DNA from: Enterobacter oligotrophicus
Lineage (GTDB): Bacteria > Pseudomonadota > Gammaproteobacteria > Enterobacterales > Enterobacteriaceae
Assembly (NCBI RefSeq): GCF_009176645.1
Contig: NZ_AP019007.1
Coordinates: 3,224,001-3,288,000 of the forward strand
DNA: 64,000 bases
Reading direction: 5' to 3'
This document shows positions 6,190 to 13,146 of the stretch, piece after piece. Under the pieces are notes generated by a model. The model searched no databases. It was given only the letters and a program-made list of their open reading frames with translations, and was not told where the DNA came from. Every line of letters begins with the position of its first letter. Position 1 is the first letter of the stretch. The position numbers were made by a program, and so were the translations under genes.

Positions 6190-6223
6190 GATCCCCGCCA
6201 CACTCTAGTCAGTGCAATCGAAG

Positions 6224-6239
6224 GTTAATCGATTAATCT
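6224..6239. promoter_or_regulatory. LacI-type operator 1 (cupin isomerase promoter)
   Basis: GGTTAATCGATTAATC contains the perfect 12-bp palindrome TTAATCGATTAA (6225-6236) with the central CG dyad typical of LacI-family operators. The same 16-mer, with at most one change, is at 11978-11993 and 12100-12115. A -10-like TATTAT (6248-6253) follows, so a bound repressor would cover the -35 region. Confidence 0.75.
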
Positions 6240-6280
6240 GCTATGCTTATTATGTTGTTCTCCTCGGGCCGGAGACACAT

Positions 6281-6844
6281 ATGAAACCTGTTATTATCCA
6301 GCCGCCGCAGGTGGACTGGCTGACTGGCGCGTTCGCGCAAAGTAAGATCCTCAGTAAAACGACCCGCATTGCCGATCTGGCCGGTGTATTTGCCGACGTC
6401 AGCGCCTGGCAAGAATCCGATCCCCGACAAGCCGTTTATGACGTAGAGATGCTCGACAGCCAGACGAGTGAAGGTAACCTTTTTGCAGGTGTCACTCATC
6501 TTCATCCGGGCCGCGTTGGCAGTGAGTTCTTTATGACGCGCGGCCACTTTCATTCACGCCGGGAGCAGGGTGAAGTCTATTTTGGTCTGCGCGGGACGGG
6601 TTTTTTGCTGCTGCAACCGGAAAGCGGTAAAGCCTGTCTGGAATCCGTTAGTCCCGGTTCGGTACACATTATCCCCGGCTCTACCGCTCACCGGCTGATT
6701 AACACAGGCACGGCGATCCTCTCTGCGCTGGCGGTCTGGCCGACGATTGCCGGGCATGATTACGCCGCGCTGGCACAAGGTTTTTCGCTACGTGTGACCG
6801 ATGTTGAGGGCAAGATCCAGGTCCGTGAGGTGCAAAATGGCTAA
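6281..6844 (+). CDS. Cupin-type glucose-6-phosphate isomerase-like protein
   Basis: A 187-residue single-domain cupin resembling the archaeal phosphoglucose isomerase family (Pfam PF06560). Metal ligands fit the cupin pattern: H89, H91 and E98 in GHFHSRREQGE, and H137 in PGSTAHR. Their spacing is the same as the published ligands of the Pyrococcus furiosus enzyme (H88, H90, E97, H136). The THLHPGRVGSEFF segment just before the HxH is also typical. It probably interconverts an aldose-6-phosphate and a ketose-6-phosphate, but the substrate is unknown. ATG 6281 is preceded by CGGAGA at 6270-6275. It overlaps the next gene by 8 bp and is controlled through operator 1. Confidence 0.75.
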   Translation: MKPVIIQPPQVDWLTGAFAQSKILSKTTRIADLAGVFADVSAWQESDPRQAVYDVEMLDSQTSEGNLFAGVTHLHPGRVGSEFFMTRGHFHSRREQGEVYFGLRGTGFLLLQPESGKACLESVSPGSVHIIPGSTAHRLINTGTAILSALAVWPTIAGHDYAALAQGFSLRVTDVEGKIQVREVQNG

Positions 6845-7607
6845 CTACGGACTGGATATGCAGGTCCACCATCAGCCTCTCGGTTTTTCTTATGGCGACG
6901 ATGTGACGGGCCCGATGCCGGAGATCCGCCGTCTGGATCAGATCCGTGGCTCATTGCGCGATCCGCAGTGCGAGGGGCCTGAGGAGGTATATGCCATCGC
7001 TATGGACGTCGCGAGAATTCAGGATCGCGACGAGCTTAAGAAACGCATGCTGTTGTTTGGCGTGGTCACTTATGCCGCCGGACAGCTTGGAGATGAGCCT
7101 GTGCGCAGCCAGGGACACGTGCACCGCATCAGCCAGCATAGCGGCTGGTCGCCGCCGGAGCTGTACGAAATCTGGCAGGGCAGCGCCATTATTTATATGC
7201 AGGAACGGGTTGAAGATGACCCAGGACGCTGTTTTGCGGTCATTGCCCATGAGGGTGATAAAGTGCTGGTGCCGCCGGGCTGGGGCCATGCCACTATTTC
7301 TGCCAACCCGGATGTGCCGCTGACGTTTGGTGCCTGGTGCGATCGGGAATACGGTTTTGAATATGAAGCCGTGCGGGCGCATAAAGGGCTGGCCTGGTAT
7401 CCGTTAATGCAGGATCGGCAGGTTATCTGGCAACATAACCCACGCTATGCACCGGGGCGCTTACAGGCGATTACGCCTCGTGTGTATGAGGAGTTTGGCA
7501 TCACGGAGGAGCCGGTTTATCAGCAGTTTATTGCCGATCCGGCACGTTTTCAGTTTATTTCCCGGCCTGATAAGGTGGCTGGGCTGTGGCAGAATTTTCA
7601 TCCATAA
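6837..7607 (+). CDS. Second cupin isomerase-like protein, divergent
   Basis: A 256-residue protein related in fold to the preceding gene but longer and more divergent. The cupin ligands are visible as H94 and H96 (SQGHVHR), E108 (PPELYE) and H151 (GWGHAT). The HxH-to-Glu spacer is five residues longer than in the first cupin. An extra C-terminal section (~180-256) with RYAPGRLQ and YQQFIADP has no assigned role here. The start overlaps the upstream gene by 8 bp with GTGAGG as ribosome site, implying coupling and perhaps a heteromeric enzyme. It could be a phosphosugar isomerase or epimerase; the substrate cannot be read from sequence. Confidence 0.65.
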   Translation: MANYGLDMQVHHQPLGFSYGDDVTGPMPEIRRLDQIRGSLRDPQCEGPEEVYAIAMDVARIQDRDELKKRMLLFGVVTYAAGQLGDEPVRSQGHVHRISQHSGWSPPELYEIWQGSAIIYMQERVEDDPGRCFAVIAHEGDKVLVPPGWGHATISANPDVPLTFGAWCDREYGFEYEAVRAHKGLAWYPLMQDRQVIWQHNPRYAPGRLQAITPRVYEEFGITEEPVYQQFIADPARFQFISRPDKVAGLWQNFHP

Positions 7608-7609
7608 CA

Positions 7610-7630
7610 AAGGGGGCCATAGGCCCCCTT
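7610..7630. terminator. Hairpin between convergent operons
   Basis: A perfect 9-bp stem AAGGGGGCC / GGCCCCCTT with a 3-base loop lies between the stops of the cupin operon (plus) and the PTS operon (minus). U-tracts on both sides are short, so it is a probable bidirectional terminator, not a textbook one. Confidence 0.65.
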
Positions 7631-7639
7631 GCGAGTGGG

Positions 7640-8458
7640 CTAACCGGCGAAAAGACCCGTTGCCACCCCTGCGGCAGCCAGTACCAGCAGCAGGATCATT
7701 GCCTTAACGGGCGATACGCCACGTTTCGCCATTAAATACCAGGTGCTCAGTACCACCACCAGCGGCAATAGCTGCGGGAAGATCCCGTCGAGCATTTGCT
7801 GTACGTGGATGTTGACCCCGTCTTTGGTCACGAACTCAAGCCCGGTCCCCAGCTTCACATAGCTTGCCGCGACGCCACCCATCACGAATACGCCAAGCAG
7901 CGACAACGCCTCGCGCAGGCGGGCCGATTTGCTGCTCACCAGCATTTCAACAGAGCCGGAGCCCATCTGATAGCCCTTCAGGAACAGGAACCAGGAGCCA
8001 GGTATGATGATAGCCAGCCAGGCGACCGTGTAGAACAGCGGCCCCAGAATGTTGCCACCAGCCGCCAGCGCCATTCCGATGCTGAGCAGAATAGGGATCA
8101 GCATGCCAGGGATCATTGAATCTCCGATCCCGGCGATCGGCCCCATCAGGCCGACTTTCAGGGTGTTGATCGTTTCGCCGTCAATCGGGTCGCCGTTGGC
8201 CTTTTTCTCTTCCAGGCCCAGCGCCATACCGTTAACGATAGCGCCGATTTGCGGTTCGGTATTATAGAAAGAGGCGTGGCGGCGCAGCATCTCTTTGCGC
8301 TGTGCAATATCAGGGTAGAGCTTTTTTGCCACGGGCAGCATGCTCAGGCAGAAGCCGAACGATTCAAGTCGTTCAAAACTCATTGAAGAGAGGTTGTGCA
8401 TCATCCACGCCCGCCAGCAGCGACGCAGATCTTTACGGGTCAGTTTACGCTCTTCCAT
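7640..8458 (-). CDS. Mannose-family PTS component IID
   Basis: A 272-residue membrane subunit of a mannose/fructose/sorbose-type phosphotransferase system. The N-terminal half is amphipathic (KLTRKDLRRCWRAW, then the MHNLSSMSFERL segment typical of IID proteins). The C-terminal half holds hydrophobic stretches (~126-152, 186-206, 234-272). Together with IIC it forms the sugar channel. Its ATG overlaps the IIC stop. It is the last gene of the isomerase-IIA-IIB-IIC-IID operon. The sugar specificity of this family cannot be predicted from the subunit alone. Confidence 0.88.
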   Translation of the reverse strand: MEERKLTRKDLRRCWRAWMMHNLSSMSFERLESFGFCLSMLPVAKKLYPDIAQRKEMLRRHASFYNTEPQIGAIVNGMALGLEEKKANGDPIDGETINTLKVGLMGPIAGIGDSMIPGMLIPILLSIGMALAAGGNILGPLFYTVAWLAIIIPGSWFLFLKGYQMGSGSVEMLVSSKSARLREALSLLGVFVMGGVAASYVKLGTGLEFVTKDGVNIHVQQMLDGIFPQLLPLVVVLSTWYLMAKRGVSPVKAMILLLVLAAAGVATGLFAG

Positions 8459-9255
8459 CAGAATTCATCCTCGTCATCTGCTACCGGCGCAGAGGCAATA
8501 GCCTGTGGTGGCTCCGGCTTGTAGTTATAGTGGATCAGCGCCAGCAGCGCGCCAACAATGACCAGTGCAACCATGTTGAGCTTCAGGAACACAATGCAGA
8601 CGAAGCCCACCAGAAAGTAGATCAGCATGGTGTAGTTTTTGATGATCTGTTTCAGCAGGATAGCAATACCGACGGCAGGCAAGATCCCACCCAGAACGTT
8701 CATGGTGGAAAGCACCACTTTCGGCAGGCTGTCCATCACGCCGCTGATGTACTGCGCGCCAAAGTAGACCGCGATAAAGGTCGGTACAAAGCGCAAAACA
8801 AAGTTGGTTGCCTGCGGCCAGATGGCGCTGTTCAGGTAGATACCGCGCTCGTCACCACGCTCCAGCGCGTTATCGGCGCGGTGGTTCCAGAAGGAGTTGA
8901 GCACCATCATCGTGTTAAACAGAATCGTTCCGGCAATACCGATGGTTGCCGCCAGCGCGACCGCCACTTCCGGCCCTTTTCCGGAAAGAATACCCAGCGC
9001 GATGGCCGGATAAGCCACAAAATTCAGGTCGGCGGGCATTGAGCCGCCGGGCGTGACCATCGCGATATAGACCGCCTGAACCGCCACGCCAATCATGATC
9101 CCGGTTTTCACATCCCCGAGGATCAGGCCAACCAGCATGCCCGATACCAGAGGCCGGGTAATTAGATACCAGCCGCCAGTCAGGCCCAGGAGCCAGGGGC
9201 TGCTGAGCGCCCCCAGATAACAGAGCACGCCAATTAATGCCGCTTCGATAATCAT
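8458..9255 (-). CDS. Mannose-family PTS component IIC
   Basis: A 265-residue integral membrane permease subunit with six or more hydrophobic segments. It has the conserved TPGGSMPADLNF loop (~residues 68-79) and the GDVKTG segment near residue 47 typical of mannose-family IIC. It ends in a polar acidic tail (VADDEDEF). Its stop overlaps the IID start and IIB ends 10 bp upstream, so IIB, IIC and IID are tightly coupled. Confidence 0.88.
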   Translation of the reverse strand: MIIEAALIGVLCYLGALSSPWLLGLTGGWYLITRPLVSGMLVGLILGDVKTGIMIGVAVQAVYIAMVTPGGSMPADLNFVAYPAIALGILSGKGPEVAVALAATIGIAGTILFNTMMVLNSFWNHRADNALERGDERGIYLNSAIWPQATNFVLRFVPTFIAVYFGAQYISGVMDSLPKVVLSTMNVLGGILPAVGIAILLKQIIKNYTMLIYFLVGFVCIVFLKLNMVALVIVGALLALIHYNYKPEPPQAIASAPVADDEDEF

Positions 9256-9265
9256 TGTCCGCTCC

Positions 9266-9760
9266 TTATTTCAGTTTTTGTCGGGCATCCTGCCAGCTGT
9301 AACTACTGGCATCAGGAACCAGACGAAACTCGATTAAATGGCCCTGTGCGTTCAGCCAGTCAAAAGCCTCGATCTCCTGAGCATTGACCGACTGATTGGG
9401 GCCAATCGTGGTGGTATCTGCACGTGCGCTCATCGGGCCGACGTTAATTTTGCCGTTGCTGTTTTTCAGGCTGATCCCGGCCTGCTCGATGCGCTGCAGG
9501 GTAAGAGGCGATTTGCCGATGACGAAATAACGCTTGTCGCTGGCAATGACCTTCGGCAGTTTTTCTATCGCCGTTGCGGTATCAAAAAGCCACACTTTGG
9601 TGTCGGAGACGGCCCCTTTCATGACGGAAGAGAGCAGGGGATCGGCCGCGACAGCATCATCAATGGCCACGATACCGTCGCAGGGCAGCTCTTTGGCCCA
9701 GCGTGTGACGAGCTGCCCGTGGATCACGCGGTCGTCGATGCGTACAAAAGAAATGCTCAT
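9266..9760 (-). CDS. Mannose-family PTS component IIB
   Basis: A 164-residue cytoplasmic phosphocarrier. The phosphorylated histidine is H14 in RIDDRVIHGQLV, the signature of mannose/sorbose-type IIB domains. It passes phosphate from IIA to the incoming sugar at the IIC-IID channel. Unlike E. coli ManX, IIA and IIB are separate proteins here, as in sorbose-type systems. Confidence 0.9.
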   Translation of the reverse strand: MSISFVRIDDRVIHGQLVTRWAKELPCDGIVAIDDAVAADPLLSSVMKGAVSDTKVWLFDTATAIEKLPKVIASDKRYFVIGKSPLTLQRIEQAGISLKNSNGKINVGPMSARADTTTIGPNQSVNAQEIEAFDWLNAQGHLIEFRLVPDASSYSWQDARQKLK

Positions 9761-9770
9761 AGCGGGTTCC

Positions 9771-10199
9771 TCAAAATTCGTCGGATTGTTCGGCAGAAGC
9801 GGGAGAAGCCACCACCAGCGTGGGTTGAGTGAGCGTTAACAGCAGGCTGGCTGCGGCGTTAACCTCGTTAAGGGCGTGGATCTCGTCGGCTTGTAACAGC
9901 ATCGGCAGATTGACCCCGCCCAGCACGGCCACTGGCGGAGAAGTCTTCGCGGAAAAGGCCCAGGTGCAGGCTACATTCCAGGGCGTACCGCTTTGCATAT
10001 CGCACAGCACCAGTACACCATCGGCATGTTCAGAGGCCTGAGCCAGTACCGTCGCGAAGTCCTGCCTGAAGCCTTCTATGCCCGCCTCACCGGTCAGCGT
10101 AACGGCGAAACAGTAAGGTAACTCGCCGACGATCATGTTGGCGGTTTCCAGCATTGCTTTTGCCATCGGCCCGTGTGACGCCACAATTACGTTAATCAT
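9771..10199 (-). CDS. Mannose-family PTS component IIA
   Basis: A 142-residue cytoplasmic phosphocarrier with the active histidine at H9 (IVASHGPMA). The conserved acidic loop is CDMQSGTPWN (~66-75), equivalent to the ManX Asp67 region. It accepts phosphate from HPr and gives it to the adjacent IIB. It sits 2 bp after the isomerase-like gene, so uptake and intracellular isomerisation are made from one mRNA. Confidence 0.9.
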   Translation of the reverse strand: MINVIVASHGPMAKAMLETANMIVGELPYCFAVTLTGEAGIEGFRQDFATVLAQASEHADGVLVLCDMQSGTPWNVACTWAFSAKTSPPVAVLGGVNLPMLLQADEIHALNEVNAAASLLLTLTQPTLVVASPASAEQSDEF

Positions 10200-10201
10200 C
10201 G

Positions 10202-11950
10202 TTACCCCCTGACCCAGGCTTTTACCGTTGCGAGTTGCTGTCCTTCACCTTTTCCCCATGGCGTAATGCGGTACTCCCCCACGGCGGCCGGGATGATGAA
10301 TGTCTCGGCGTAATGCACGACGAAAGGCTCAAATGCACCGCTTGGGCTGTCAACGCGCGCTTCGTCGCCTTCAACCAGATTGAGCACGTTAACGCCACCT
10401 TCTGTGTGATGCGTGACCGGGCCGCTAAACCAGTGGCGGCGCGTTTCAATAAATTCCCGTTCGTGCAGGCCGGTACGTTCTTCGCGCCAGCTTTCACCTT
10501 CGGCAACCGGTTCAATACGGTTTACCAGATGTTCGTTCACCCACTGTGTATCGCGCTGCCAGTCGATAACCTGTTCGCCGTGGTCAAGATGCACCGGACG
10601 CGGTAACCCATCCATCCCCAGTCGACCCCAGTCCCAGAGCTTGAAGGTGAAAATGTAAGGCGTGGCGCTGATCTCAAGCACCATGGTGCCGGACCCGGAG
10701 CAGTGCACGGTGCCCGCCGGGATCAGGAAGTGGTCGTGTTTTTTGGCCGCAATCTGATTCACAAAGCGCGCGTCGTCGAACGGTTTCTCGCCGCGTGCCG
10801 CCTGGCGCAGATCGTTCAGCATGGCTTCAGGTTCGGTGCCGGTTTTGGTGCCGAGATAGACGACGGCACCCGGTTCGGCGTCGAGAATGTAATAGCTCTC
10901 ATCCTGGGTGTAATGCATGCCAAACTGCTGCTGGATGTACTCCGTTAATGGATGCACCTGAAAACTCAGGTTCTGCCCCCCAACGGTGTCGAGGAAATCA
11001 AAGCGGATCGGGAATTCTGCCCCGAAGCGTGCGTGAACCTTTTCGCCCAGTAGCGCGCGAGGCTGCAGAAGCACCAGGTCCTGAGAGGGGATCTCGATCC
11101 GAACGTCGCCAAACCGCATCAGCAGGCTGTTTTCCTCGGGCACGCAGTCAAAACACCATGCGTAGTTAGGCTTCGCTGGATCGAGATCGAATCGTTGTTT
11201 CATCCACTGTCCGCCCCAGACGCCGGGATCGAAGAATGGCACCACGCGGAACGGTTGTTGCGTTGTCTGCTGCAGCCCTGCACGCAGCGCCTCGCCGCTG
11301 ACTGCCGCCGGTGCGTTGGCAACGGTGGTATCCAGCAAATAATCGCAGCGTTTAAGCAGGGGCGTTTTATGTCGGTCAAAAACACGCCATTCGATGAAAA
11401 AAGCACGCTTGTAGCGGCGGAGTATGTCTTCATGCTGATTTTCCACGCCCCAGTTGCCAAGCTCGCCTGCGCGCATACGCTGCTGGATTTCCCAGCGCGG
11501 TAAATCCGCATACACCAGCACATCACCAGGGTGTACCAGTGCGGCACCTGGCCCGTAGACAATGACCAACCCGGAGGTGACATCCGCTACCTGCTGTTGC
11601 AGCGCGGCTAATGCGTGGCTGTCAAAAAATTCCGCAAGCTGGTGGCAGGAGAGTACGCCAAAGACGCGGTCATCCGTCAGGTTACGGTCCAGTAGGGCGT
11701 TGAGCGCCTGCACGTCATGGCGGGCGGTTTCAGCGTTTATCCGCACTGCGTCGCCCAACTGCACGAACAGGTTTTGCTCCAGCTCATCAAGACGAACGCC
11801 GGGATAACAATCAATAACCAGTACCGTTTTTTGGGTAAGGTGAATCCTGGTGTTAAGCGCAGCAATAATGTCGTTCCACCCGCGCCAGGCGTGGGTATCG
11901 AAGCCCCGAACGGTGACTTCCGGGTATTTGTTATAGAAGGTACTTTTCAT
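10202..11950 (-). CDS. Class I mannose-6-phosphate isomerase with extra N-terminal domain
   Basis: A 582-residue protein, well above the roughly 390 of E. coli ManA. Residues ~237-582 match class I phosphomannose isomerase: FFDPGVWGGQW (~239-249), metal ligands Q331 and H333 (FQVHP), E351 (TQDESYY) and H416 (PAGTVHC). Residues 1-235 form a separate alpha/beta domain. It contains KTVLVIDCYPG (41-51) where a P-loop would stand but no GxxxxGK[ST], and a late segment (YKRAFFIEWRVFDRHK, 180-195) reminiscent of uridine-kinase or phosphoribulokinase-type proteins. That resemblance is my inference. It is the first gene of the PTS operon, preceded by CGGAG, and is controlled through operator 2. Probable role: converts the imported sugar phosphate towards fructose-6-phosphate. 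Confidence 0.75.
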   Translation of the reverse strand: MKSTFYNKYPEVTVRGFDTHAWRGWNDIIAALNTRIHLTQKTVLVIDCYPGVRLDELEQNLFVQLGDAVRINAETARHDVQALNALLDRNLTDDRVFGVLSCHQLAEFFDSHALAALQQQVADVTSGLVIVYGPGAALVHPGDVLVYADLPRWEIQQRMRAGELGNWGVENQHEDILRRYKRAFFIEWRVFDRHKTPLLKRCDYLLDTTVANAPAAVSGEALRAGLQQTTQQPFRVVPFFDPGVWGGQWMKQRFDLDPAKPNYAWCFDCVPEENSLLMRFGDVRIEIPSQDLVLLQPRALLGEKVHARFGAEFPIRFDFLDTVGGQNLSFQVHPLTEYIQQQFGMHYTQDESYYILDAEPGAVVYLGTKTGTEPEAMLNDLRQAARGEKPFDDARFVNQIAAKKHDHFLIPAGTVHCSGSGTMVLEISATPYIFTFKLWDWGRLGMDGLPRPVHLDHGEQVIDWQRDTQWVNEHLVNRIEPVAEGESWREERTGLHEREFIETRRHWFSGPVTHHTEGGVNVLNLVEGDEARVDSPSGAFEPFVVHYAETFIIPAAVGEYRITPWGKGEGQQLATVKAWVRG

Positions 11951-11977
11951 CTGTTCACTCCGTTATCGTTATAATAA

Positions 11978-11993
11978 GATTAATCGATTAACC
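11978..11993. promoter_or_regulatory. LacI-type operator 2 (PTS operon promoter)
   Basis: GATTAATCGATTAACC is operator 1 read on the other strand, base for base. On the minus strand it lies just upstream of a -10-like TATTAT (plus 11971-11976) and so sits between the -35 and -10 regions of the PTS operon. Confidence 0.75.
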
Positions 11994-12008
11994 TTGTTAT
12001 GGAAGAGT

Positions 12009-12025
12009 GGTTAACGCGATTAACC
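12009..12025. promoter_or_regulatory. Extra inverted half-sites between operators 2 and 3
   Basis: GGTTAA and TTAACC half-sites flank a 5-bp centre (CGCGA) instead of the 4-bp centre of the main operators. It may be a weaker or decoy site for the same regulator; this is based only on half-site identity. Confidence 0.35.
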
Positions 12026-12064
12026 CGGCACTCTGCGCAGGAAAGCGGATTTTCTGGCGGGGAG

Positions 12065-12080
12065 TGTGAACCGCTTCACA
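12065..12080. promoter_or_regulatory. CRP-binding site
   Basis: TGTGA-N6-TCACA, a perfect match to the core CRP consensus, in the divergent control region between the PTS operon and the LacI-type gene. Its centre is about 41 bp before a plausible start for the regulator and about 110 bp from that of the PTS operon. Confidence 0.8.
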
Positions 12081-12099
12081 GGGAATGAGGCAAAATTCA

Positions 12100-12115
12100 G
12101 GTTATTCGATTAATC
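12100..12115. promoter_or_regulatory. LacI-type operator 3 (regulator gene)
   Basis: GGTTATTCGATTAATC differs by one base from operator 1 and lies 24 bp ahead of the regulator ATG. This implies autoregulation. Confidence 0.7.
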
Positions 12116-12138
12116 TGTGAAAGGAAAAAGGAGGAACA

Positions 12139-13146
12139 ATGACGACTATTACGCTGGCGCAGGTCGCAGAACGAGCAGGCGTATCGACCGCCACGGTGTC
12201 GATGGTGCTGCGAAACCGTGGGCGGATCTCTCAGGCCACCAGGGAAAGGGTGCTGAAAGCAATTGATGATTCCGGCTATGTTTACAATCAGACGGCGGCA
12301 AACCTGCGTAACCGCAGCAGTAACCAGGTTGGGCTGCTTTTGCACGATATAACAAACCCTTTTTACGGGGAAATGACCGCCGGGCTAAGCCATGAGATGG
12401 AGCGCCACGACATGCTGCTGTTTCTGGCAAACAGCGAAGAATCCGGCGAGCGGCAGCAAAAATTCGTCGATTCGTTGATGCGAAATAACGCCTGCGGCAT
12501 GGTGCTCTGTGCCGCCCGTGAAACGCCGCGCTCCTTTTTTGACAGTCTGAAGCGACGCAACATTCCTGCCATTATGGTTGTACGTCCGGTCAACGATCCG
12601 GATTTTGATTTCGTCGGGACCGACAACTTTCTTGGCACCCAGATGGCGACCGCGCATCTGCTTAAACTTGGACACCGCCATATCGCCTTTATTGGCGGGA
12701 GTCAGCATTCGGGTACACGCGCACAGCGTATCGGCGGTTTTACCAGTAAGCTGCTTGAAAATGGCCTGTCGGCAGATCCTCGCTGGGTTATCACCAGCCA
12801 GGCGAGCCAAAGCGACGGCGCACGCGTGGCCGAAAATTTATTCCGCCAGTATCCGGAGATCACCGCCGCAGTCTGCTATCAGGATATTGTCGCGCTGGGG
12901 GTAATGCAGGCGCTACGCAAACTGAGACGTGAACCCGGACGCGATTTTGCCCTGGTCGGTTTCGACGATATCACCGAGGCGGCGCTGGTCCAGCCAGGGC
13001 TTACGACCGTTTCGGTGGCGGCGAAAGAGATAGGTCGTAAAGCCGGAGAGCTTCTCTTCAGCCGAATTCAGGGGAATAACGAGCCGCCGAAACGCATCAT
13101 TCTGCCTCCGGCACTGGTAGTCAGAGAATCATGCGGTTTCGTTTAG
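12139..13146 (+). CDS. LacI-family transcriptional regulator of the PTS island
   Basis: A 335-residue repressor. The N-terminal helix-turn-helix (~residues 4-25, TLAQVAERAGVSTATVS) is followed by the hinge region. A periplasmic-binding-protein-like effector domain runs from ~60 to 330 (GLLLHDITNPFYGEM and FVGTDNFLGTQMATAHL are typical). The start has a strong AAGGAGG at 12128-12133. It is divergent from the isomerase/PTS operon. The three copies of the TTAATCGATTAA-type operator at the island's promoters are its likely targets. The effector is probably the sugar or sugar phosphate handled by the island. Confidence 0.88.
   Translation: MTTITLAQVAERAGVSTATVSMVLRNRGRISQATRERVLKAIDDSGYVYNQTAANLRNRSSNQVGLLLHDITNPFYGEMTAGLSHEMERHDMLLFLANSEESGERQQKFVDSLMRNNACGMVLCAARETPRSFFDSLKRRNIPAIMVVRPVNDPDFDFVGTDNFLGTQMATAHLLKLGHRHIAFIGGSQHSGTRAQRIGGFTSKLLENGLSADPRWVITSQASQSDGARVAENLFRQYPEITAAVCYQDIVALGVMQALRKLRREPGRDFALVGFDDITEAALVQPGLTTVSVAAKEIGRKAGELLFSRIQGNNEPPKRIILPPALVVRESCGFV

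Follow-up and report, generated by a model that had tools for sequence, protein, structure and literature searches.

A predicted LacI-controlled regulon joining a mannose-family phosphotransferase system to three putative sugar-phosphate isomerases in Enterobacter oligotrophicus

Eight genes between ispH (end 6140) and dapB (start 13275) of Enterobacter oligotrophicus GCF_009176645.1 appear to form an undescribed relative of known sugar-uptake systems, combining a mannose-family phosphotransferase system (PTS) with isomerases, rather than new machinery. We read them as a catabolic regulon that LacI represses and CRP activates and whose sugar is a hexose of manno configuration, in the simplest case D-mannose or a near derivative yielding mannose-6-phosphate, and put the probability of this reading at roughly 0.55. 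It is carried by the gene set, its common operators and its CRP-type site, all with their conservation in relatives, and by the mannoside context of the long isomerase PMI-582. The stretch analysed (the window, 64 kb) covers positions 3,224,001 to 3,288,000 of NZ_AP019007.1, and the host genome is a single contig of 4.48 Mb; coordinates below are window positions.

Two cupin genes, GPI1 and GPI2, which overlap by 8 nt, lie on the plus strand and face a convergent PMI-582-IIA-IIB-IIC-IID operon on the minus strand, with a divergent lacI-type gene on the plus strand beyond it. A sequence-only reading of this DNA had proposed a cupin pair, an operon of a phosphomannose isomerase (PMI)-like gene with a full PTS, and a lacI-type gene; all eight genes were confirmed from open reading frames (ORFs) and Pfam. 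The features are as follows.

6223..6238, plus strand: LacI-type operator GGTTAATCGATTAATC before the cupin pair (motif scan), its centre about 50 bp upstream of the start codon
6281..6844, plus strand: GPI1, a cupin of the phosphoglucose isomerase type (Pfam GPI, 70.9 bits against a cut-off of 20.7), ligand motif GHFH...E...H kept
6837..7607, plus strand: GPI2, a second, more distant GPI-type cupin (Pfam GPI, 64.5 bits against 20.7), ligand motif GHVH...E...H kept
7610..7630, no strand: G+C hairpin AAGGGGGCCATAGGCCCCCTT with converging operons on either side, from its sequence a probable shared terminator
7640..8458, minus strand: PTS IID, mannose family, above the Pfam cut-off, with a divergent pocket region (SFERL, GDSMIPG)
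8458..9255, minus strand: PTS IIC, mannose family, above the Pfam cut-off, with a divergent pocket region (TGGWYLITRPL)
9266..9760, minus strand: PTS IIB, mannose/sorbose family, above the Pfam cut-off
9771..10199, minus strand: PTS IIA, mannose family, above the Pfam cut-off
10202..11950, minus strand: PMI-582, class I mannose-6-phosphate isomerase-like, 582 residues, with an N-terminal domain (about 1-220) and a catalytic part (about 229-456) placed by alignment to a solved PMI
11978..11993, minus strand: LacI-type operator before the PMI-PTS operon (motif scan), kept in relatives
12065..12080, no strand: perfect CRP-type site TGTGAACCGCTTCACA between the divergent operators, the sole match with at most one mismatch in the window
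12100..12115, plus strand: LacI-type operator before lacI (motif scan), suggesting autoregulation, 122 bp from the PMI operator
12139..13146, plus strand: LacI-family regulator of the cluster (Pfam), just reaching the NCBIfam MalI subfamily (PRK10014)

From these parts we infer a pathway, and with it what each enzyme does, which sugar the PTS carries, what acts as effector and in which direction regulation works. As is usual for its family, the IIA-IIB-IIC-IID system would import the sugar and phosphorylate it at C6. PMI-582 would then convert mannose-6-phosphate to fructose-6-phosphate, a step for which the genomic context is strong, and the cupins would connect fructose-6-phosphate with glucose-6-phosphate, GPI1 by virtue of its similarity to cupin-type phosphoglucose isomerases (cPGIs). 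Judging from the sites, LacI would repress all three units, its own gene included, until a phosphorylated intermediate accumulates, and CRP would activate them. The earlier proposal that the imported sugar becomes a 6-phosphate needing only isomerisation to reach fructose-6-phosphate fits this gene content, in which three units carry one operator.

The regulatory sites are specific to the cluster. With up to three mismatches, the palindrome GGTTAATCGATTAATC has six matches in the window (three sites, each on both strands), compared to 0.37 expected. Throughout the genome, the three cluster sites are the only matches with at most one mismatch, and just two more, weaker, places appear when two are allowed. 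Thus, one palindromic operator stands at every unit, the regulator gene included, the arrangement by which we recognize a LacI-controlled catabolic regulon, and the eight genes make up one predicted regulon, probably switched by one LacI repressor. The regulator scores 310.1 bits against the cut-off of 310 for PRK10014; the cluster holds no mal genes. A study of LacI regulons (PMC4052901) names mannose regulators, and the portion of its text examined does not mention this cluster.

Relatives were gathered through PMI-582: the 80 loci fetched are the best 80 of at least 588 confirmed, with 34 from γ-proteobacteria (gamma loci) and 46 from other groups; they are numbered with the prefix L. When up to three mismatches are allowed, 32 of the 34 gamma loci carry two or more operators between lacI and the PMI gene; L041 carries one and L036 none. 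The distance between operators, measured from first to last in L035 and L040, which carry three sites, is 121–123 bp in 20 of the 32 loci, 130–132 bp in 11 and 112 bp in one. These distances differ by about one helical turn, which fits cooperative binding or looping and may also reflect descent. Upstream of GPI1, an operator with at most two mismatches is present in 23 of the 25 gamma loci that have this gene (exceptions, L036 and L042). The best CRP-type match is perfect in 15 of the 34 gamma loci and within one mismatch in 26. Since operators and spacing are conserved in γ-proteobacterial relatives, the cupins look co-regulated with the PTS operon, a point on which the sequence-only reading had staked itself beforehand. 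The idea that the cupins are unrelated to that operon was rejected, as the same operator precedes both.

A weaker form of separation, in which the cupins act on one sugar and the PMI-PTS operon on another, with the regulator alone in common, would account for four enterobacterial loci (L021, L022, L028 and L032) that keep lacI-PMI-PTS with no cupin in the fetched stretch. We consider it improbable: the operator before GPI1 speaks against it, and so do the 46 non-gamma loci, 15 of which link cupins to the PMI gene although a search for a LacI of this type gave none there.

The gene association itself recurs, in the gamma loci as a whole and, for the cupins and the PMI, beyond them, as a check proposed with the original prediction had anticipated. 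In the gamma loci, lacI is present in 34, the PTS in 29, GPI1 in 25 and GPI2 in 23. Of the non-gamma loci, 14 carry GPI1 and 11 carry GPI2, with the two together in 10 (Fisher p 2e-6, without correction for phylogeny), so that the totals for GPI1, GPI2 and the pair over all 80 loci are 39, 34 and 33. These counts were obtained by tblastn, each family being represented by one reference or a few, against whole fetched stretches of up to 21.7 kb; for ROK they give 18 of 80, which is below the clustering count reported further on. Chance co-location was rejected in view of the recurrence across loci and the conserved operators.

PMI-582 is the component most informative about the substrate. The whole protein has no Pfam or NCBIfam match at E≤0.001; residues 229–456 match the solved PMI 1qwr (E 7e-12; profile 2.3e-13), and NCBI annotates the relatives as class I PMI. 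Four residues that we take to be zinc ligands (Q331, H333, E351 and H416) do not vary among the 40 sequences aligned, that of the window being one of them. Their positions were set by alignment to 1qwr, which carries Lys in place of the Gln ligand, and, for Q-x-H, to the ManA of the host, with which the pairwise match of PMI-582 spans only 41 columns. We therefore read PMI-582 as a diverged member of the class I mannose-6-phosphate isomerases, extended at its N terminus by a further domain. Because of its neighbourhoods, where ROK kinases, mannosidases and GH38 genes behind the operator recur, mannose-6-phosphate is very probably the substrate. The N-terminal residues 1–220 (window 11291–11950) match no Pfam family above cut-off and contain several blocks that are near-invariant across several phyla.

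These neighbourhoods were surveyed by clustering the neighbours within 7 kb in 53 of the 80 loci (far loci) and typing cluster representatives by Pfam. They contain a ROK kinase in 28 cases, a GH38-type protein (glycoside hydrolase family 38) in 20 (16, plus a separate MngB-like cluster of four), and GPI cupins in 12. Of 20 plasmid rows listed, 11 records were covered, one of them lacking annotation; the ten annotated ones include GH92 in five (Hymenobacter tibetensis, H. volaticus, Parabacteroides, Spirosoma and Flammeovirga) and ROK in seven; one of the GH92 records also has GH76 and another GH38. The Flammeovirga plasmid encodes an 886-residue protein (L117:4978-7638) in which a ROK kinase (residues 8–264) is fused to the long PMI, matching the window PMI at 36% over 562 alignment columns from residue 342; a sugar porter gene follows, and a GH92 gene stands two genes on. 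The α-mannan-type utilisation loci of Bacteroidota have the long PMI in common with our cluster and combine it with a ROK kinase and with GH92, accompanied by GH76 or GH38. They differ from our cluster in handling free sugar with a kinase instead of a PTS, and no GPI cupin is annotated in those records.

The link to mannosides extends to the operator. In three of the 34 gamma loci, all enterobacterial (L016, L019 and L020), a mannosylglycerate-type PTS gene and a GH38 gene lie downstream of an operator copy (the PTS gene of L019 is a 314-residue ORF, and the GH38 gene of L016 is cut by the end of the stretch). In Photobacterium and aeromonad loci, the orthologous LacI and PMI are joined to GH38 and PTS genes of other families, among them a MngB-like GH38 (L038) and a MngA-like PTS (L035). 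In the three enterobacterial loci, relatives of both genes of the mannosylglycerate system MngA-MngB thus stand behind the operator that also precedes the PTS operon described here. Those scored fall below the Mng equivalog cut-offs (PTS, 427 and 445 of 763; GH38, 634 and 655 of 1138), so these same-operator genes probably serve another mannoside than mannosylglycerate. Together, GH92, GH76, GH38, ROK, the fusion and the same-operator genes give PMI-582 a mannose context, and the earlier suggestion that three isomerases point to a rare hexose gives way to it; a rare hexose is possible, but it is not needed to explain the cluster and is not the best reading.

Neither MngA nor the GH38 MngB was found in the window cluster (ORFs, Pfam), and the host has two distant mngAB-like loci elsewhere. 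The two GH38 genes there (L099 and L100) each lie beside a fructose-type PTS gene and are 31–38% identical to the GH38 of the relatives compared. The PTS could accordingly import a mannose glycoside or a modified mannose, from which a hydrolase outside the regulon, for example at one of the mngAB-like loci, would free mannose-6-phosphate. The GH38 and mannosylglycerate-type PTS genes behind the same operator in relatives would suit this explanation, as would the pairing of the two host GH38 genes with PTS genes. It seems quite unlikely, given the low identity of the host GH38 proteins, the lack of any operator match with at most two mismatches near their genes, and the 27 of 34 gamma loci without a GH38 match in the fetched stretch.

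The two cupins complete the predicted route. GPI1 aligns over residues 11–183 of 187 to the solved archaeal-type phosphoglucose isomerase 1j3p (E 7e-38), passes the Pfam cut-off and retains the His-x-His...Glu...His metal motif. Thus, it likely interconverts fructose-6-phosphate and glucose-6-phosphate. GPI2 also combines the Pfam match with the metal motif (H94, H96, E108 and H151 are invariant in 17 of 17 sequences, window included). It differs from the cPGIs in being longer and remote from solved PGI (best single-sequence E 7.5e-7), and probably catalyzes a similar C1-C2 isomerisation, perhaps of the other aldose or anomer. Neither cupin matches NCBIfam, and both activities are predictions from sequence. 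Known cPGIs are described as metal-dependent and specific for glucose-6-phosphate and fructose-6-phosphate (PMC12965863).

If all three isomerases carry out ordinary C1-C2 chemistry, their reach is a single pair of aldoses with the ketose that these share, and the number of enzymes by itself is no indication of C3 or C4 epimers. Class I PMIs are members of the cupin superfamily as well, Pfam having a PMI 'cupin domain' entry, and the earlier statement that the three isomerases represent two unrelated folds is therefore doubtful. One Vibrio locus, one aeromonad locus and a Deinococcus plasmid carry an AGE-family epimerase/isomerase gene, with GPI2 not found there; this pattern fits a C1-C2 aldose-ketose or C2-epimer reaction.

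Several observations weigh against a regulon for mannose. No mannosidase is present in the regulon of the window. The C-terminal part of PMI-582 reaches 18.2 bits against Pfam PMI_typeI_cat, under the curated cut-off of 22. Its Lys437, conserved in 40 of 40 sequences, replaces an Arg of 1qwr (TYR), presumably catalytic; the aligned PMI 1zx5 likewise lacks Arg at this position. IIA, IIB, IIC and IID all exceed the Pfam cut-offs of the mannose family, and IIC and IID match the solved mannose PTS 6k1h (E 9e-23 and 2.8e-48), but with NCBIfam the subunits give sub-cut-off matches only. The pocket-region residues of the solved mannose PTS (6k1h, 7xno), by which a mannose/glucose-specific system would be recognized, are not kept. 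The Asp of LDEFQF in IIC is Gly, the Asn of N-[FY]-ERM in IID is Ser, and GDP[IV]FW in IID becomes GDSMIPG. All 29 aligned IIC sequences of the cluster type have Gly and all 33 IID sequences have Ser, window included; as controls from the same genome, one ManY-like IIC has Asp (a second was too short to serve) and one IID has Asn. PMC10783117 places mutations at PtnC D25 and PtnD N28 of Lactococcus in close proximity to the probable sugar pocket. The Gly and Ser here would correspond to these two positions, a correspondence that we infer from an alignment with no Lactococcus row. A plain mannose system would also be redundant, because the host already possesses pgi, manA and further PTS genes of the mannose family, a ManXYZ-like set among them.

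Two further points against the mannose regulon concern the neighbourhoods. A GH38 gene is present in 5 of 40 loci with a cupin and in 17 of 40 without (p 0.005, phylogeny not corrected); this anti-association has p 0.06 in the gamma loci and p 0.09 in the far loci when split, again with phylogeny not corrected. On a PMI tree, GPI and GH38 labels are more clustered than when shuffled (values as low occurred in 2 and 0 of 500 shuffles), so the neighbourhoods are partly inherited. The tree, made by a quick method, has 67 rows, with the window added and 18 of 64 inner branches unsupported; it leaves off L057, L058, L066, L078 and L085, in which the ORF caller missed or split the gene, and nine near-identical gamma loci. 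In favour of the mannose reading, GPI and GH38 neighbourhoods interleave on it, with 10 and 8 label changes, respectively, forced by its starred branches. As a consequence, the cupin loci form no single PMI clade, and there is no clear sign of two PMI substrates.

The altered pocket residues suggest that the substrate may not be plain mannose, and are the main reason for retaining a rival: the sugar taken up by the PTS would be an aldohexose of an uncommon kind, or a hexose altered at C3 or C4, and the three cupin isomerases would epimerise it stepwise to fructose-6-phosphate, one of them moving the carbonyl beyond C2. The redundancy with pgi, manA and the ManXYZ-like PTS, and the anti-association of cupins and GH38, would suit such a sugar. 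A search of 395 Bacteroidota genomes is also compatible with it: GPI2 is present in five, including the centre genome of the search (L105; the others are L109–L112), with PMI-582 and a sugar porter close by in five of five, a ROK gene in four and GPI1 in three. Among 369 genomes of the host's class, nearly all from other families, GPI2 was found only in the window genome, which also has a remote paralogue. The mannosidase context of PMI-582 and the LacI operator upstream of GH38 genes in relatives argue against this rival. So does chemistry: characterised enzymes of the GPI and PMI types carry out C1-C2 reactions, as PMC12965863 describes for cupin PGI. We regard the rival as unlikely. Its fuller version is rather unlikely, too: a conserved three-cupin module (long PMI, GPI1 and GPI2) would epimerise an uncommon hexose-6-phosphate, or a C3/C4 variant of mannose-6-phosphate, stepwise to fructose-6-phosphate. 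In Enterobacterales this module would be coupled to a PTS with its pocket reshaped for that sugar, in Bacteroidota and Bacillota to a ROK kinase and a sugar porter, and GPI2 would represent a novel isomerase activity.

The mannose regulon can be compared with E. coli ManXYZ and ManA, where a mannose-family PTS likewise feeds mannose-6-phosphate to a class I PMI. Our cluster differs in its separate IIA and IIB, its own LacI repressor, the extra N-terminal domain of its long PMI, two added GPI cupins and the altered pocket motifs. The open-licence literature searched yielded no published substrate for an orthologous cluster; such a publication would have told against the original proposal.

The long PMI is widely distributed. 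A match at E≤0.001 is present in 46 of 295 sampled genomes of the family. Ten of these matches are weak, probably to ordinary PMIs; the remaining 36, with the window counted and two partial, are strong (E 4e-187 or better). Two further genomes of the host's genus were covered, and PMI-582 is present in the one and absent from the other. Relatives with 52–62% identity come from Bacillota, Bacteroidota, Spirochaetota, Verrucomicrobiota and others, and at least 8000 candidate proteins score E≤0.001. E. coli was rejected as the usual home, since the PMI gene has no blastn match in 5,426 E. coli genomes, and so were plasmids, where the matches are distant (best, 69%; 78 records). One record labelled Escherichia coli (L023) carries the cluster though no complete E. 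coli genome matches the PMI gene, and its label may be wrong.

The cluster was originally described as standing in place of E. coli rihC. This holds for the host, from which rihC is apparently missing, because the sole nucleoside-hydrolase match lies elsewhere, beside genes that resemble glt ABC parts by eye. It may not hold for all relatives: in L020 and L024, an ORF judged rihC-like by eye adjoins the cluster, and an ORF of 304–317 residues, compared by length only, occupies the same position in L010, L011, L012, L014, L023, L026 and L047.

Other gene combinations were seen in passing. In Superficieibacter (L016:14452-17154), the PTS operon is separated from the cupins by a GH1 glycosidase and a PTS IIC of the cellobiose family. 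An aldose 1-epimerase-family gene is next to the cluster in Vibrio (L036:8496-9386, Pfam) and Photobacterium (L035:5931-6791, by eye). Two adjacent similar proteins, the first with a RibD_C match, precede the PMI in L070 (5809-7702), and a like pair was noted by eye in L076. Elsewhere in the host genome (L103:206-3614, near C1:1316351), a glucose-family PTS EIICB, a 280-residue GPI-type cupin (Pfam GPI, 256.6 bits), a SIS-domain protein and an OMPdecase/HUMPS-family protein stand in a row, which looks like a PTS feeding a hexulose-6-phosphate isomerase/synthase pair.

The conserved operator provides a handle on the inducing sugar and, hence, on the substrate of an undescribed subgroup of mannose-family PTS. 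That PMI, GPI1 and GPI2 recur as a set in several phyla suggests an entry route to glycolysis that can be reused, despite the presence of pgi and manA.

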